A DNA stretch of 64,000 nt, from positions 1-64,000 of the forward strand of contig JALWFG010000015.1 in NCBI GenBank assembly GCA_027038965.1, written 5' to 3'. A program made the translations under genes and the position numbers. The notes below the pieces were generated by a model that made no database searches, was not told the DNA's origin, and saw only the letters and a program-made list of their open reading frames with translations. Positions 1,507-7,424 of the stretch are shown here, piece by piece. The first letter of the stretch is position 1, and each line of letters opens with the position of its first letter. This DNA is from Candidatus Desulfofervidaceae bacterium. GTDB taxonomy: Bacteria; Desulfobacterota; Desulfofervidia; Desulfofervidales; Desulfofervidaceae.

Positions 1507-2871
1507 ATGGATAAGATACTAATCGTAGATGATGATTTAAATATTTTAAAACTTCTTTGTATGCGTCTAGAAACCGAAGGATATATCGTAGATGCTACTC
1601 CAGAGTTCGAAGAAGCTTTAAAAAAGATAGAAAGAGAGGATTTTTCTTTGGCCTTGGTTGACTTAAAGTTGAAACAAAGAACCGGAATAGAATTAATGGA
1701 GGCAATTCATAATATAAATCCTGAAATGCCGATTATCATTCTTACTGCTTATGGAACTATCAAAAGCGCGGTAGAAGCCATGAAAAAAGGTGCTTACACA
1801 TATTTGACCAAACCTTTTGATTTTCAAGAATTGTCTCTTCAAATTAAAAATGCAATAGAAAAGGCAAAATTGAGCCGCGAAGTGAAAAGATTAAGGGAAA
1901 TAGTAAAGGGAAAATATGAGTTTACAAATATAGTTGGCAAAAGCGAGGCTATGAAAAGGCTTTTGGATTTGGTATCTCGAGCGGCCCAAATCGATTCCAA
2001 TGTGTATCTCCAAGGAGAAAGTGGGACAGGCAAGGGCCTCATTGCAAAGGCACTTCATCTGGCAAGTAAGCGTAAAGATGGTCCCTTTGTGGCAATCAAT
2101 TGTGCTGCCATTCCCGAGACCTTATTGGAAAGCGAACTCTTTGGTTTTGAAAAAGGGGCATTTACAGGGGCAATTTACAGTAAAAAAGGACTTTTTGTTC
2201 AAGCGAACAATGGGACGCTTTTTTTAGATGAAATATCCGAAATTCCTTTATCTATGCAAGCCAAACTACTCCAGGCCTTAGAAGAAAAGAAATTCTATCC
2301 TTTGGGTGGAGAATTGCCAGTTGAAGTCGATGTAAGAATAATTGCTGCTTCCAATAAAGATCTCAAAGAAGAAGTTAAGAAGGGCAATTTTAGAGATGAC
2401 CTATTTTATAGGATTCATGTTATTCCCATAAAAATACCTCCCTTACGGGAGAGAAAAGAGGATATTCCTCTTTTGGCAAATTTTTTTCTTAAAAAGAATT
2501 GTGATAAAATGAATAAAAATATCAAGGGTTTTTCTGCTAAGGCCCTAAAAAAGATGATGATGTATTCCTGGCCTGGCAATGTGAGAGAACTAGAAAATGC
2601 CGTTGAATGTGCTGTGGCCATATGCATTCAAGATGTCATCCCCGAGGACCTAATCCTTCCCACGCAAAGGATGGAAGAGGACATGCTAAAACCTTTAAAG
2701 GAAGCCAAAAGTGAATTTGAAAAAAACTATCTGATTCACTTATTGCAAGTTACCCAAGGCAATGTTAGCCAAGCGGCTAAGCTAGCACACAAATACAGAG
2801 CTGACTTTTATAAACTTCTTGAAAAATACCACATTGACCCCAAAAAATTCAGAAAGAACTTTACAGATTAG
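1507..2871 (+). CDS. Sigma-54-dependent response regulator, GlrR/NtrC type
   Basis: The protein has a receiver domain (DDD at 8-10, phospho-acceptor D52 in ALVDLKL, conserved LTAYG and TKPF). This is followed by an AAA+ module with Walker A GESGTGKG, the sigma-54 contact loop GAFTGA, Walker B LFLDEIS and the arginine-finger region. It ends in a Fis-type helix-turn-helix (TQGNVSQAAKLAHKYRADFYKLL). The length of 454 residues is normal. It lies 10 bases after the lipoprotein gene, so it forms one transcription unit with its kinase. It should activate sigma-54 promoters when phosphorylated. Because the partner kinase is interrupted, its phosphorylation state in this strain is uncertain. Confidence 0.9.
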   Translation: MDKILIVDDDLNILKLLCMRLETEGYIVDATPEFEEALKKIEREDFSLALVDLKLKQRTGIELMEAIHNINPEMPIIILTAYGTIKSAVEAMKKGAYTYLTKPFDFQELSLQIKNAIEKAKLSREVKRLREIVKGKYEFTNIVGKSEAMKRLLDLVSRAAQIDSNVYLQGESGTGKGLIAKALHLASKRKDGPFVAINCAAIPETLLESELFGFEKGAFTGAIYSKKGLFVQANNGTLFLDEISEIPLSMQAKLLQALEEKKFYPLGGELPVEVDVRIIAASNKDLKEEVKKGNFRDDLFYRIHVIPIKIPPLRERKEDIPLLANFFLKKNCDKMNKNIKGFSAKALKKMMMYSWPGNVRELENAVECAVAICIQDVIPEDLILPTQRMEEDMLKPLKEAKSEFEKNYLIHLLQVTQGNVSQAAKLAHKYRADFYKLLEKYHIDPKKFRKNFTD

Positions 2872-3517
2872 CTATTTCAATTGCAACTTGAGAGGATGCT
2901 TGAGGTATATTTTTAGAGATGTAACTGCAATTTGTGTTTTTCAACCGTTCTTTAAGATTCAAATACAATGCTACTGAAGGGTTGCCTTGTGCAGTTGGAT
3001 AGGGTTTTTCTTCTCCTATTTGTTGGAATCCCAAACACTTTTGATAAAAATCTTTATGCTTGGGATGAACGGCAATAAGTAAGTTTTCCATATCCTTCAA
3101 TAAGGCATAGGCAGCTACATATTGGCTTAAATACTGACACACGTTTTTAAACCGATACTTCCTATGAATGGCTAAACCACTAATTTCTGCAAGAGGAATA
3201 TTCCTTTGTCTAAGGGGAAGAATCTCCTTTTCGTAAATTTTCTCAATGGGCAACTTAGTGTGAATACCATCAATAATAGTAATTGTGCCTACTAATTCCC
3301 TTTTTTGTCCTTTGGTCTTGGCAATAAAGGTTTTTGTAGTTTGGAGATAATTATATTCAAAAACCCTTAACCCTAAAAGGTTGGGCTTTGTATAGCCTGC
3401 TTCTAAATAAACTTTATAGAGAAGACGATAGGCTTCTTCTAATTCTAAAGGTGTTTCTGCAATTTTTATTTCAAAACAATCAGGAAACTTTAAGGCAAAG
3501 AATTGAGAATATTTCAT
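2861..3517 (-). CDS. FeeM-like N-acyl amino acid synthase / GNAT acyltransferase
   Basis: This 218-residue protein has the LYKVYLEAGY and AEISGLAIHRKYR patterns found in the FeeM/LuxI-related GNAT group. These enzymes transfer acyl chains from acyl carrier protein to an amino group, as in N-acyl amino acid or acyl-homoserine-lactone synthesis. The last 30 residues look non-conserved. It is convergent with the sigma-54 regulator and the two 3' ends overlap by 11 bases. It stands alone, with no LuxR-type receptor beside it. The exact substrate cannot be told from the sequence. Confidence 0.55.
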   Translation of the reverse strand: MKYSQFFALKFPDCFEIKIAETPLELEEAYRLLYKVYLEAGYTKPNLLGLRVFEYNYLQTTKTFIAKTKGQKRELVGTITIIDGIHTKLPIEKIYEKEILPLRQRNIPLAEISGLAIHRKYRFKNVCQYLSQYVAAYALLKDMENLLIAVHPKHKDFYQKCLGFQQIGEEKPYPTAQGNPSVALYLNLKERLKNTNCSYISKNIPQASSQVAIEIANL

Positions 3518-3793: not shown

Positions 3794-5707
3794 TCAATTT
3801 ATTTGAGTCTTTTTAGTAGATAGAATCCGATAATCTTTCCCTTGGACCTTTATGCGAAGGGTCAAAAAGTGGGTATCTAGGTAATCGAGAATAGGGACAG
3901 TATACTGTCGTGATAAACCCAGCAATTCTTTGGCCTCTTCTAGGCTTAGCCTTTCTTTAATCATTAAAAAGCCTTTTATTTTTTTCCAAGCCTTATTCAA
4001 CGATTTGCAATAGATAAGGCGTCTGCTATTAAGCACTACAATATAGCCATTTTCTATGAGAAACTCTAAGGCCCTTTCTAAACATTTTGGATTAGCGATA
4101 TTAAACTTCTTTTTAAGCAAAGCCATGGTAAATCCCTTAAGCCCTGCCTCTATAGCATAACTTTTTATTTGGTTTGAAAGTTCTTGTTCTTCTCTATTTA
4201 AACGGGGTGTAAAGTCTTTGAGATGATATCGGCCTTTGGTTAATGCAACTAGATTTTCTTTACAAAGTTCTTTTAAGGCATATTCTATTATCTTTAAGTT
4301 TAGGTCTTTAAATCTATGGCAAATTTCATCTTTGCCGACGCCCCACTTAAAATAAAATTTTTGATGAAATTCCTTTAAATAGGACAGAATTTGCCTTTTA
4401 ATCTGATTTAAATTGGAATGGGCGTAAAAGCTGCCTTCTATTTCTAGAATTTTTCCCTTTTGTTTAAGTTGATCAAGCAATTCTATAATCTTGTCGCTGC
4501 CGGTTTGTTTGAAAAGGTCATGCCTAGAGAGTAGCCCTTCATAATGATCTTGAATTAAGGAAAACACAAACCCTTCGTTTACGCCCTGACAAAATGCCTG
4601 ATAGCGAGAAAGCAAAAATTTCATTTTTTGGCGAAATTTTCTTCTGGTTACCTCTACTACTATACCGCCACCTATGGTATGGGCAGGGCTTAGGCTTCTT
4701 ATTACAAATCTGTCTCCAGGCAGGGCAGTTACAGGGCTGGTGCACCTAAATTGGACAAAGCCTGTTTCACCTGGCATAAGCCTTTCTTTATCTAGGAGAA
4801 CTACTTTGGCCGTTACTTCCATGGTTCCTAAAAACAGTTTTACAGTGGTATAATTATTGAAGACCCCCTCATGGGTGTATTGTAAAAGGGCATTTACAAA
4901 ACGGCTAGGTTCTAAAAGACCATTATCTGCCAGCACCATTCCTCTTTTTATTTCTTCTTTTAAACCACCAAGATTTATTCCTACTCGCCTGCCAGCGGTT
5001 ACTTCATCCACATCTTGGCGATGGACTTGAAGCCTTTTGACTTTTACCATCTGACAAAGGGGATAGAGTGTCTTTACCTGTCCTATTCTACACTTGCCAC
5101 TGAGTACAGTGCCTGTGATCACTAAACCCTGACCAGGCACATGAAGTACCCGGTCAATGGGCATTCGGAAAAAGGCATTGTTTCTACGACAAGGCATTTC
5201 TTCGACCATTTTTGATAAGGCCACTAATAATAAAGAAATACCTTCTTGAGTTTGGGCTGAAAAGGGAATAATAGGTGCTTGGGATAAAAAGCTGCCTTTT
5301 ACCAATTCTTTAACCTCTTCTTGGGCCAAAAGCTGTGTTTCCTCGTCTACCAAATCAATTTTAGAAAGTACTATCAAACCGTGTTGAATATTAAGAAGTT
5401 TAAGGATTTCTAAATGTTCTTTGGTTTGAGGCATAACCCCATCATTTGCCGCTACTACTAAAATGGCAGCATCCACACAAGTAGCGCCCCTAACCATATT
5501 TTTAATAAAATCTTCGTGCCCTGGAAGGTCTACAAACGCCAGTTGAACTTCAGAGGAAAGCTTAAAAGGTACTACCGAGGGCTCAATTGTCAATCCCCGT
5601 TCCTTTTCTTCCTTTAAGATATCAGGGTCGACCCCAGTAAGGGCCTTAACGAGGCTAGATTTGCCGTGATCCACATGTCCAGCAATGGCAATGGTAAATT
5701 CCAACAT
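3794..5707 (-). CDS. selB: Selenocysteine-specific elongation factor SelB
   Basis: The 637-residue protein matches the usual SelB length. The N-terminal GTPase has G1 GHVDHGKS at about 10-17, the switch region ERGLTIEPSV, G3 DLPGHE and a G4 of the form SKID. Elongation-factor beta-barrel domains II and III follow, and then a long C-terminal stretch of predicted winged-helix domains that bind the SECIS hairpin. SelB carries selenocysteinyl-tRNA to UGA codons on the ribosome. The gene starts 33 bases after the unusual tRNA at 5741-5833 and is co-directional with it and with the hydrogenase gene. selA, selD and a canonical selC are not in the window. Confidence 0.95.
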   Translation of the reverse strand: MLEFTIAIAGHVDHGKSSLVKALTGVDPDILKEEKERGLTIEPSVVPFKLSSEVQLAFVDLPGHEDFIKNMVRGATCVDAAILVVAANDGVMPQTKEHLEILKLLNIQHGLIVLSKIDLVDEETQLLAQEEVKELVKGSFLSQAPIIPFSAQTQEGISLLLVALSKMVEEMPCRRNNAFFRMPIDRVLHVPGQGLVITGTVLSGKCRIGQVKTLYPLCQMVKVKRLQVHRQDVDEVTAGRRVGINLGGLKEEIKRGMVLADNGLLEPSRFVNALLQYTHEGVFNNYTTVKLFLGTMEVTAKVVLLDKERLMPGETGFVQFRCTSPVTALPGDRFVIRSLSPAHTIGGGIVVEVTRRKFRQKMKFLLSRYQAFCQGVNEGFVFSLIQDHYEGLLSRHDLFKQTGSDKIIELLDQLKQKGKILEIEGSFYAHSNLNQIKRQILSYLKEFHQKFYFKWGVGKDEICHRFKDLNLKIIEYALKELCKENLVALTKGRYHLKDFTPRLNREEQELSNQIKSYAIEAGLKGFTMALLKKKFNIANPKCLERALEFLIENGYIVVLNSRRLIYCKSLNKAWKKIKGFLMIKERLSLEEAKELLGLSRQYTVPILDYLDTHFLTLRIKVQGKDYRILSTKKTQIN

Positions 5708-5740: not shown

Positions 5741-5833
5741 TGGAGGGGGCAAGGGGAATTGAACCTCCTCCAGCCTTTTTAGGGCCGGCCAACGGGTTTG
5801 CAGCCCGCGGGGAGCACCAGCTCCATTGCCCCC
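5741..5833 (-). tRNA. Selenocysteine-tRNA-like cysteine tRNA, anticodon GCA, 8/4 acceptor branch
   Basis: Read on the minus strand from 5833, the 93-nt molecule folds as follows. The acceptor stem has 8 bp (GGGGGCAA with TTGCCCCC). The D arm is GAGC-TGGT-GCTC, with a 4-nt loop. The anticodon stem CGGG/CCCG closes a loop CTGCAAA, giving anticodon GCA. The variable arm has 6 bp (CCGGCC with GGCTGG) and a 7-nt loop. The T stem has 4 bp interrupted by one bulged A, with T loop TTCAATT. The discriminator is U and CCA is encoded. The long acceptor, minimal D loop and long variable arm are features of tRNA-Sec. GCA and U73 are the main identity elements for cysteinyl-tRNA synthetase. A plain tRNA-Cys would have a 7/5 branch and a short variable loop. 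The closest class I know of is the published deltaproteobacterial Cys tRNA with 8/4 structure that mimics tRNA-Sec. It is likely charged with cysteine. Confidence 0.85.
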
Positions 5834-5855
5834 ATAACATAAAAGTAGGAGGGGC

Positions 5856-5874
5856 GGAGGATGGCTAATCCTCC
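5856..5874 (-). other. GC-rich hairpin between hydrogenase gene and tRNA
   Basis: A 7-bp stem (GGAGGAT with ATCCTCC) closes a 5-nt loop, 45 bases after the hydrogenase stop codon and 23 bases before the tRNA. On the transcribed strand a CTTTTAT stretch follows about ten bases later, so a weak terminator is possible. A tRNA-processing or mRNA-stabilising stem is equally possible. It lies too far from the hydrogenase active-site codons to act as a bacterial SECIS element for them. Confidence 0.35.
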
Positions 5875-5918
5875 CTTTAAATGGCTGGCCGTCGGCAAAT
5901 TTCCCCCCGATGAATAAA

Positions 5919-7424
5919 CTAAATCTTGACCACCACACCTTTTTTATTGGTTTGGAGCAAATGTACTGCACAAGCAAGACATGGATCAAAGGACCTTACA
6001 ATGCGCACCACCTCAACAGGATTGTCAGGGTCAGGCACAGGGGCATTTAAAAGGGCCTGCTCTATTGGCCCCGGTTGTTCTTTGTCATCCCTTGGAGAGG
6101 CATTCCAGGTAGTAGGAACAACACACTGATAATTGGCAATTTTATGGTCTTTTATTACAATAAAGTGTCCCAAGGCCCCTCTAGCGGCCTCTGATAGACC
6201 CATTCCTTCTCCGGAGACAGGGACCTCAACCTTTTTATAATAAGGTGCATTATAATCTAACTCCTTTACCCATTTGGCCAATTGATTGGCTACTAACCAA
6301 GTTTCTTCGGCCCTGGCAATGTGACGACCCCAGGTAGAAAATGCCCTGTCTCCCAAATCTCTAAACCGGATTTCTTTATTTTCTGAAATACCCAAGAAAC
6401 GATTAGCATGCTTGCTTATTACAGGGTTGGTAACCCACATTCGAGCAAGGGGACCGACTTCATGGGGCACTCCATTATATCTTGGAGCCTTAATGTAAGT
6501 ATAGGCCCTAGGTTTATCAAGGTTTAATTCCGTTTTTCCCTCTAGAGGTTTTAACCCACTCGTTTTATCATCATACCAAGAATATTTAACAAATTCAGCA
6601 ATTTTATTAGGCTCAAAGGGCCTATCTTGGCCATTTGTATAGACCCCAGGTTTTAAAAGAAATTCAGTCCGGGCATCGTTTAAGGGAAAGACTCCATAAC
6701 TAATCACATTTTTACACCCAATTCCAGTTTTAAAACACTCTGGATAAACCTTTGCTAAGGCATAAACTGTAGGCAGATATTCAGTATCAATAAAGTTTTT
6801 AACTTCCTCTAAACGCCATAAGAAACCTGGTACAGCATCCTTTGTGAGAATTTGGGTATGTCCTCCAACGACTACTCCATGACAATGAGGTGCCCTTGAA
6901 GCCACCATAGCTACCATTTCTTGGGCTAGAGTTTTTATCTCTAGGGCCTTCAAATACCCCTTTACGGCCTTTTCATTGGTAAATTTATCAAGCTTATAAA
7001 CATTCTTCCCATCATATCTAGGAACAAAAGGTGGCACATTAGGCCCTTTTACATAATCAAGGGCGCTTAGGTGATAAAAATGGAGAATATGGTCATAGAG
7101 CCAATGGGCCCCTAAGGTAAGATTGCGCATAATTCTCCCATTGGTTGGCGGCGTAATTCCAAAGGCGTCTTCCAAACAAGTTGCCGAAGCCACCGCATGG
7201 TCAATGGGACAAACACCACAAATCCTTTGAGTAATCTGAGTAGCATCTCTGGGGTCCCTCCCCTTAAGGATGATTTCAATTCCTCTAAACATTGTCCCTG
7301 AACTCCAGGCATTAACTACACGCCCATGTTCTACCTCTACTTCTACCTTTAAGTGACCCTCAATTCGTGTGATAGGGTCAATTACCACCCTTCTGGGTGC
7401 CTTTTTAGGTCTGGCTCCAGCCAT
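5919..7424 (-). CDS. [NiFe] hydrogenase large subunit (group 1-like), orphan
   Basis: The catalytic subunit of an uptake-type hydrogenase, 501 residues. The N-terminal nickel ligands are in RICGVC (C69, C72) and the C-terminal ligands in DPCLACAVH (C482, C485, H488). Thirteen residues follow His488, the peptide normally removed by a maturation protease. Both C-terminal cysteines use TGT codons, including the position that is selenocysteine in [NiFeSe] enzymes. The start has a GGAGG site and a TTGACA-type promoter upstream. No small-subunit, membrane-anchor or protease gene lies beside it, which is unusual because the small subunit normally precedes it. The gene is followed by the selenocysteine-like tRNA and selB in the same direction. 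Confidence 0.93.
   Translation of the reverse strand: MAGARPKKAPRRVVIDPITRIEGHLKVEVEVEHGRVVNAWSSGTMFRGIEIILKGRDPRDATQITQRICGVCPIDHAVASATCLEDAFGITPPTNGRIMRNLTLGAHWLYDHILHFYHLSALDYVKGPNVPPFVPRYDGKNVYKLDKFTNEKAVKGYLKALEIKTLAQEMVAMVASRAPHCHGVVVGGHTQILTKDAVPGFLWRLEEVKNFIDTEYLPTVYALAKVYPECFKTGIGCKNVISYGVFPLNDARTEFLLKPGVYTNGQDRPFEPNKIAEFVKYSWYDDKTSGLKPLEGKTELNLDKPRAYTYIKAPRYNGVPHEVGPLARMWVTNPVISKHANRFLGISENKEIRFRDLGDRAFSTWGRHIARAEETWLVANQLAKWVKELDYNAPYYKKVEVPVSGEGMGLSEAARGALGHFIVIKDHKIANYQCVVPTTWNASPRDDKEQPGPIEQALLNAPVPDPDNPVEVVRIVRSFDPCLACAVHLLQTNKKGVVVKI

Follow-up and report, generated by a model that had tools for sequence, protein, structure and literature searches.

The selC* tRNA-Cys genes form a described class, in which U73 and a GCA or UCA anticodon are combined with an 8/4 branch and a bulged A (Mukai and colleagues, 2017; reviewed in PMC7609411). 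According to the review, the carriers include Thermodesulfobacteria and deltaproteobacteria, a second selB has been reported downstream of selC* in Syntrophobacterales and Desulfobacterales, and an 8-bp acceptor stem disfavours EF-Tu (PMC7609411). CysRS* and selC* insert Cys at Sec UGA codons, and a role in selenium scarcity has been proposed (PMC9437257). Switching between Sec and Cys isoforms is described in PMC11097638 for Methanococcus maripaludis, where Cys versions serve as alternatives under selenium depletion.

The locus analysed here is located on contig 15 of a 2.19 Mb genome, listed as 100% complete, from an anaerobic bacterium related to Candidatus Desulfofervidaceae. The whole stretch of DNA that was analysed, 64,000 nucleotides long, is referred to as the window. 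The features at issue, in the order in which they are encoded, are the following.

5919..7424, minus strand: stand-alone large subunit of a NiFeSe-family hydrogenase (HysA-like) in a Cys form, with no adjoining small-subunit gene
5834..5918, minus strand: gap of 85 nt between hydrogenase and tRNA, with no promoter- or terminator-like site on this strand
5741..5833, minus strand: selC* tRNA-Cys, tRNA-Sec-like with an 8/4 branch and an encoded CCA, from sequence, ARAGORN, Rfam and covariation
3794..5707, minus strand: selB*, a second SelB of 637 aa (TIGR00475, 325.5 bits) with wing_2 and wing_3 domains

With the selC*/SelB* pairs of Mukai and colleagues this locus shares the 8/4 branch, the bulged A, the long variable arm, an anticodon of the GCA or UCA kind, U73 and the downstream selB, but no cysS* is seen beside the tRNA and a Cys-form hydrogenase large subunit precedes it; the host also differs from the Syntrophobacterales and Desulfobacterales in which selB* was reported. 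The 8-bp acceptor, the long variable arm, the SelB domain layout and the Arg, Asp and Thr residues of WH4 are common to canonical tRNA-Sec and SelB, whereas Cys marks replace UCA and G73, and SelB* is 36% identical to the canonical SelB of its own genome. As in Methanococcus maripaludis, Cys versions of selenoenzymes would be kept as alternatives for times of selenium depletion; here, however, the Cys isoform shares its locus with a tRNA and an elongation factor. A non-canonical clostridial tRNA-Cys with anticodon GCA, named tRNA-ReC, is said to have been found by Vargas-Rodriguez in 2018 to recode UGA with SelB in an E. coli host. The likeness would lie in a Cys-charged, tRNA-Sec-like tRNA that works with SelB and has GCA forms; the clostridial tRNA was reportedly assayed in E. 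coli, whereas the window tRNA is described here from its sequence.

The tRNA gene and its host genome

The gene at 5741-5833 (minus strand) is called as tRNA-Cys (gca) by ARAGORN, and the covariance search with a tRNA-Sec model that the preliminary description had suggested gave a match: tRNA-Sec (RF01852) was the top Rfam family for this gene, at 59.9 bits (cut-off 47; E 1.2e-9 for the whole window). Read 5' to 3' on the minus strand, the acceptor stem pairs GGGGGCAA with UUGCCCCC over 8 bp. The D stem (GGAGC/GCUCC) closes a loop of 4 nt, UGGU, and the anticodon stem (GCGGG/CCCGU) closes the loop CUGCAAA, giving the anticodon GCA. The variable arm (CCGGCC/GGCUGG) consists of 6 bp, one of them G-U, with a loop of 7 nt, and the T stem (GG(A)GG/CCCC) of 4 bp with one bulged A. 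The discriminator is U73, CCA is encoded in the gene, and 33 bases separate the end of the tRNA (5741) from the selB start codon (5707). The preliminary description had listed the 8-bp acceptor, the 4-nt D loop, the 6-bp variable arm and the 4-bp T stem with its bulge as a tRNA-Sec body, together with the Cys marks GCA and U73, the encoded CCA and the distance to selB, and every one of these details is correct.

The cloverleaf is conserved among nine related sequences, in which 98% of the cells pair. Double-sided changes support 10 of the 28 pairs, including 5 of the 6 that form the variable arm, and because none of 500 shuffles reached as high a covariation, the fold is not due to chance. The tRNA is 97% and 95% identical to its relatives.

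An ordinary tRNA-Cys has a 7/5 branch and a short variable region, and a canonical tRNA-Sec has UCA, G73 and an 8/5 branch; the window tRNA, with its 8/4 branch, 6-bp variable arm, GCA and U73, is neither. The sequence marks of the selC* class are all found, namely the 8/4 branch, the T-stem bulged A, the long variable arm and GCA with U73, and likewise a coexisting canonical tRNA-Sec and SelB and a second selB downstream. Since its features match those published, the window tRNA is, as judged from its sequence, a member of the selC* class and of a kind already known; the preliminary description had placed it in a published class of deltaproteobacterial 8/4 Cys tRNAs, an assignment borne out by the features given in PMC7609411. 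The identities of 5741-5833 as a selC* tRNA-Cys and of its neighbour as SelB* can be taken as nearly certain.

Covariance searches and examined sequence stretches of the same genome revealed both an ordinary tRNA-Cys with GCA and an ordinary tRNA-Sec with UCA, the two genes that the preliminary description had proposed to look for. The genome encodes one SelA, with the canonical SelB at the same locus (contig 18), and two full-length SelB proteins, the contig 18 and window copies, which are the pair with 36% mutual identity. Three genes carry an in-frame TGA for Sec, two for hydrogenases and one for FlpD. Because ordinary tRNA-Cys, tRNA-Sec, SelA and canonical SelB are all present, selC* is a Cys-type tRNA additional to the ordinary one, in an organism that uses Sec; that it might be the sole, merely deviant tRNA-Cys, as the preliminary description had considered, is excluded. 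One of the Sec hydrogenases is a second large subunit with the motif DPULSCATH and an in-frame TGA, located on contig 5 (locus L079, 7996-9438, minus strand).

SelB* and the genes beside selC*

A covariance model built from nine members was used to search 395 genomes of the phylum, and 40 selC* loci were counted after six ordinary tRNA-Sec matches had been removed; these low-scoring matches (in G040, G103, G130, G180, G326 and G344) carry UCA and G73. The 40 loci comprise 28 with GCA and U73, 10 with UCA and U73 and 2 with UCA and A73; in 27 of them the tRNA is followed on its 3' side by a SelB gene of the same orientation. All carriers that are at least 90% complete have a separate tRNA-Sec match over threshold, and in all but one of them SelB was matched at the threshold applied. 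Among 390 phylum genomes, selC* occurs in 26 of the 27 with at least two SelBs and in 13 of the 363 others (Fisher 8.6e-30, a p-value that is inflated and overstates independence because the sampled genomes are related). G158 is the only surveyed genome with two SelBs in which no selC* was found at the threshold used.

The window SelB* belongs to the SelB family (TIGR00475, 325.5 against a cut-off of 242.25; PF09106 and PF09107 above cut-off) and has the layout of an EF-Tu-like GTPase followed by SelB winged helices, of which domains 2 and 3 are recognized by Pfam. In a tree of SelB proteins, the canonical SelBs of the carrier genomes form one clade, from which the selC*-linked SelBs are cleanly separated. 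The WH4 residues R608, D619, T624, R626 and R631 are retained in 88-100% of SelB* proteins. At positions S607, K609 and F618, which hardly vary in canonical SelB, most SelB* proteins have G, T and L. SelB* would thus still bind an mRNA hairpin, because the Arg, Asp and Thr residues are kept, and the three altered positions may point to a changed preference. In part of the SelB* tree the GCA and UCA forms of the tRNA are intermixed, which suggests, from the sequences, that both share one function. No target mRNA dependent on SelB* was identified in this analysis. Downstream of selB* lies a gene for a FeeM-like N-acyl amino acid synthase (window 2861-3517, minus strand).

The hydrogenase gene at 5919-7424 (NF033181, 683.7 against a cut-off of 600) immediately precedes the tRNA on its 5' side and has the same orientation. 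It has a Cys codon, TGT, in the motif DPCLACAVH, where the other copy in the genome has TGA in DPUIACSVH. This Sec form of HysA, on contig 8, is 62% identical to the window copy and adjoins a small-subunit gene; upstream of the window copy lies RuvX, and no small-subunit gene adjoins it. A search for a promoter between hydrogenase and tRNA found none, and a gap without promoter- or terminator-like sites is consistent with co-transcription, though not proof of it. Folding of the sequence surrounding the hydrogenase TGT in the window gave no evident SECIS-like hairpin when compared with shuffles (z -1.0). A structured leader upstream of the tRNA was considered and rejected, its fold being ordinary (z -0.07). 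Genome G004 also has a Sec and a Cys form of the hydrogenase, the latter 83% identical to that of the window and located on a contig other than that of its selC* genes; the hydrogenase is adjacent to selC* in neither G001, which belongs to the same genus as the window genome, nor G004.

In other genomes the recurrent neighbour of selC* is FlpD (MvhD). Among the listed FlpD copies shorter than 500 aa in carrier genomes, UGA-free genes make up 13 of the 13 within 9 kb of selC* and 53 of the 115 others (Fisher 1e-4, for copies that are not independent). In Sec FlpD, U occupies one or the other of two sites, CCxYU and GUHxGECHY; the selC*-adjacent copies examined have Cys at both, and the copy at L132 is truncated ahead of the first site. 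By sequence, selC* thus has as neighbours Cys versions of enzymes whose Sec-containing counterparts are encoded in the same genomes, a genomic link of which no earlier description was found as far as the literature search reached. YedE, YedF, SelD or DUF3343, which have been linked to selenium metabolism (PMC5322559), adjoin selC* in several loci. A conserved ORF of about 184-230 aa with no Pfam match is found between FlpD and selB* (L125, 8802-9356, minus strand; also L114, L120 and L122). A split HdrA in G010 was examined as a possible UGA (Sec) site and rejected, as it is due to a frame shift and contains no UGA.

Possible roles of the locus

The reading preferred here, with a probability of roughly 0.55, is that of a selenium-shortage module in which SelB* would insert Cys from the selC* tRNA. 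CysRS would charge the tRNA with Cys through GCA and U73, which are known identity elements, and the tRNA-Sec-like body, with its 8-bp acceptor and long variable arm, would direct the charged tRNA to the second SelB, a dedicated one whose gene begins 33 nt downstream; such delivery is suggested by position, by co-inheritance and by the retained SelB domains. SelB* might then place Cys at SECIS-marked UGA codons, as has also been proposed in print, so that selenoprotein synthesis could continue with Cys during a shortage of selenium. The locus would be induced under these conditions, and the spare Cys-form large subunit could replace Sec HysA and use its small subunit. Taken together, hydrogenase, tRNA and selB* look like one selenium-shortage locus. 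This reading is favoured by the Cys marks on a tRNA-Sec body, the dedicated second SelB, the presence of canonical Sec machinery and the neighbouring Cys isoforms, and the delivery by SelB and insertion of Cys under selenium shortage put forward in the preliminary description fit the same genomic picture. Its weakest step is the reading of UGA, which would be near-cognate because GCA is cognate to UGC and UGU; moreover, the Cys isoforms next to selC* are encoded with normal UGU/UGC codons, for which SelB* is not required. The failure to find a target mRNA of SelB* or a hairpin around the hydrogenase TGT, the position of the hydrogenase away from selC* in G001 and G004, and carriers that lack a second SelB, such as f19 genomes with an 8/5 form, also count against it. 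A fuller version is less likely than not. In it, selC*, SelB* and the linked Cys isoform (HysA here, FlpD elsewhere) would exchange key selenoenzymes for Cys versions while reading Cys at whatever Sec UGA codons are left, by means of a SelB* that has a hairpin specificity of its own.

The mismatch between GCA and UGA would disappear if SelB* and the GCA tRNA read particular UGC/UGU codons singled out by a SECIS-like hairpin, so that Cys would be delivered to chosen mRNAs by a dedicated route with no recoding of UGA. The predominance of GCA with U73 (28 of 40 loci) agrees with this, and the WH4 changes S607G, K609T and F618L could mean a different hairpin. However, UGY is already read by the ordinary tRNA-Cys, 10 of the 40 loci have UCA with U73, both anticodons occur among related SelB* proteins, and the hairpin is not evident around the hydrogenase TGT, all of which makes such a route unlikely. 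The position of the tRNA, which precedes selB* by 33 nt without an intervening promoter-like site, could instead point to a mainly regulatory tRNA that titrates a SelB, or whose excision from the selB* leader sets the level of SelB*; for overlapping selC-selB genes, control of selB expression by tRNA processing has been proposed (PMC8124441). Yet most loci conserve the Cys marks, for which a decoy would have no need, a separate SelB* accompanies the tRNA, and G001 has a promoter-like site directly before the tRNA, though one is expected by chance. A chiefly regulatory role is accordingly quite improbable, and the decoy titrating SelB that the preliminary description had offered found no specific support, the co-occurring separate SelB* arguing against a pure decoy for the canonical protein.

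Two further explanations concern the charging of the tRNA and whether it works with SelB at all. The long variable arm, the tRNA-Sec-like body and the Rfam score would suit a second tRNA-Sec that receives Ser, which SelA then converts, as would the two related loci with UCA and A73 that have lost U73; but the window tRNA and 28 of the 40 loci carry the Cys marks U73 and GCA, and the genome already has a normal tRNA-Sec, so that this origin of its amino acid is very unlikely. That the gene has no SelB role, being a further ordinary tRNA-Cys or a relic, has the ARAGORN call in its favour and is hardly to be expected, given the strong covariation, the 95-97% identity in relatives, the tight co-occurrence with a second SelB and the 8-bp acceptor, which disfavours EF-Tu (PMC7609411). 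If the preferred selenium-shortage module works as proposed, the Sec codon would switch between Sec and Cys with the selenium supply, and would constitute a conditional genetic code.

Carriers outside the phylum and variant tRNAs

A DNA pattern scan of named genomes gave 37 matches, most of them with SelB downstream. The carriers include the culturable Desulfacinum infernum DSM 9756 and D. hydrothermale DSM 13146, which, together with linked Cys isoforms that are named enzymes, provide material for asking what selC* is for. Others belong to the Actinomycetota (a Slackia heliotrinireducens MAG, Subteraquimicrobium, Geothermocultor and others), a phylum that is not in the review's list of selC* carriers (PMC7609411). 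A selC*-like tRNA lies beside SelB in the actinobacterial loci L214, L195, L200 and L216, and the actinobacterial SelBs fall outside the canonical clade of the tree, branching near it. The present analysis thus adds to the described class the association of selC* with pairs of SelBs, the WH4 pattern of SelB*, the Cys-isoform neighbours and the actinobacterial carriers.

Several loci depart from the common form of the tRNA. Three of them (L068, L130 and L136, in genus g22 of family f19) have an 8/5 form in which the position of the bulged A is paired, and no second SelB is found in these genomes. The selC*-like tRNAs of L129 (10002-10090, G351) and L131 (9994-10082, G275) combine UCA with A73, U73 being lost, and a SelB adjoins each; G275 has three SelBs. 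Two selC*-like tRNAs occur in G004 (L062, 7632-7721, and L063, 4146-4235), both with C rather than U at position 33. At L070 (10032-10125, G002), an 8/5 tRNA with GCA and U73 is followed within a few bases by a DUF3343 gene; split YedE genes belong to the same cluster, and there is no SelB nearby. At L069 (9949-10042, G025), a tRNA-Cys with GCA and a long variable arm, apparently 7/5, is located near YedE-like and TusA-like genes.
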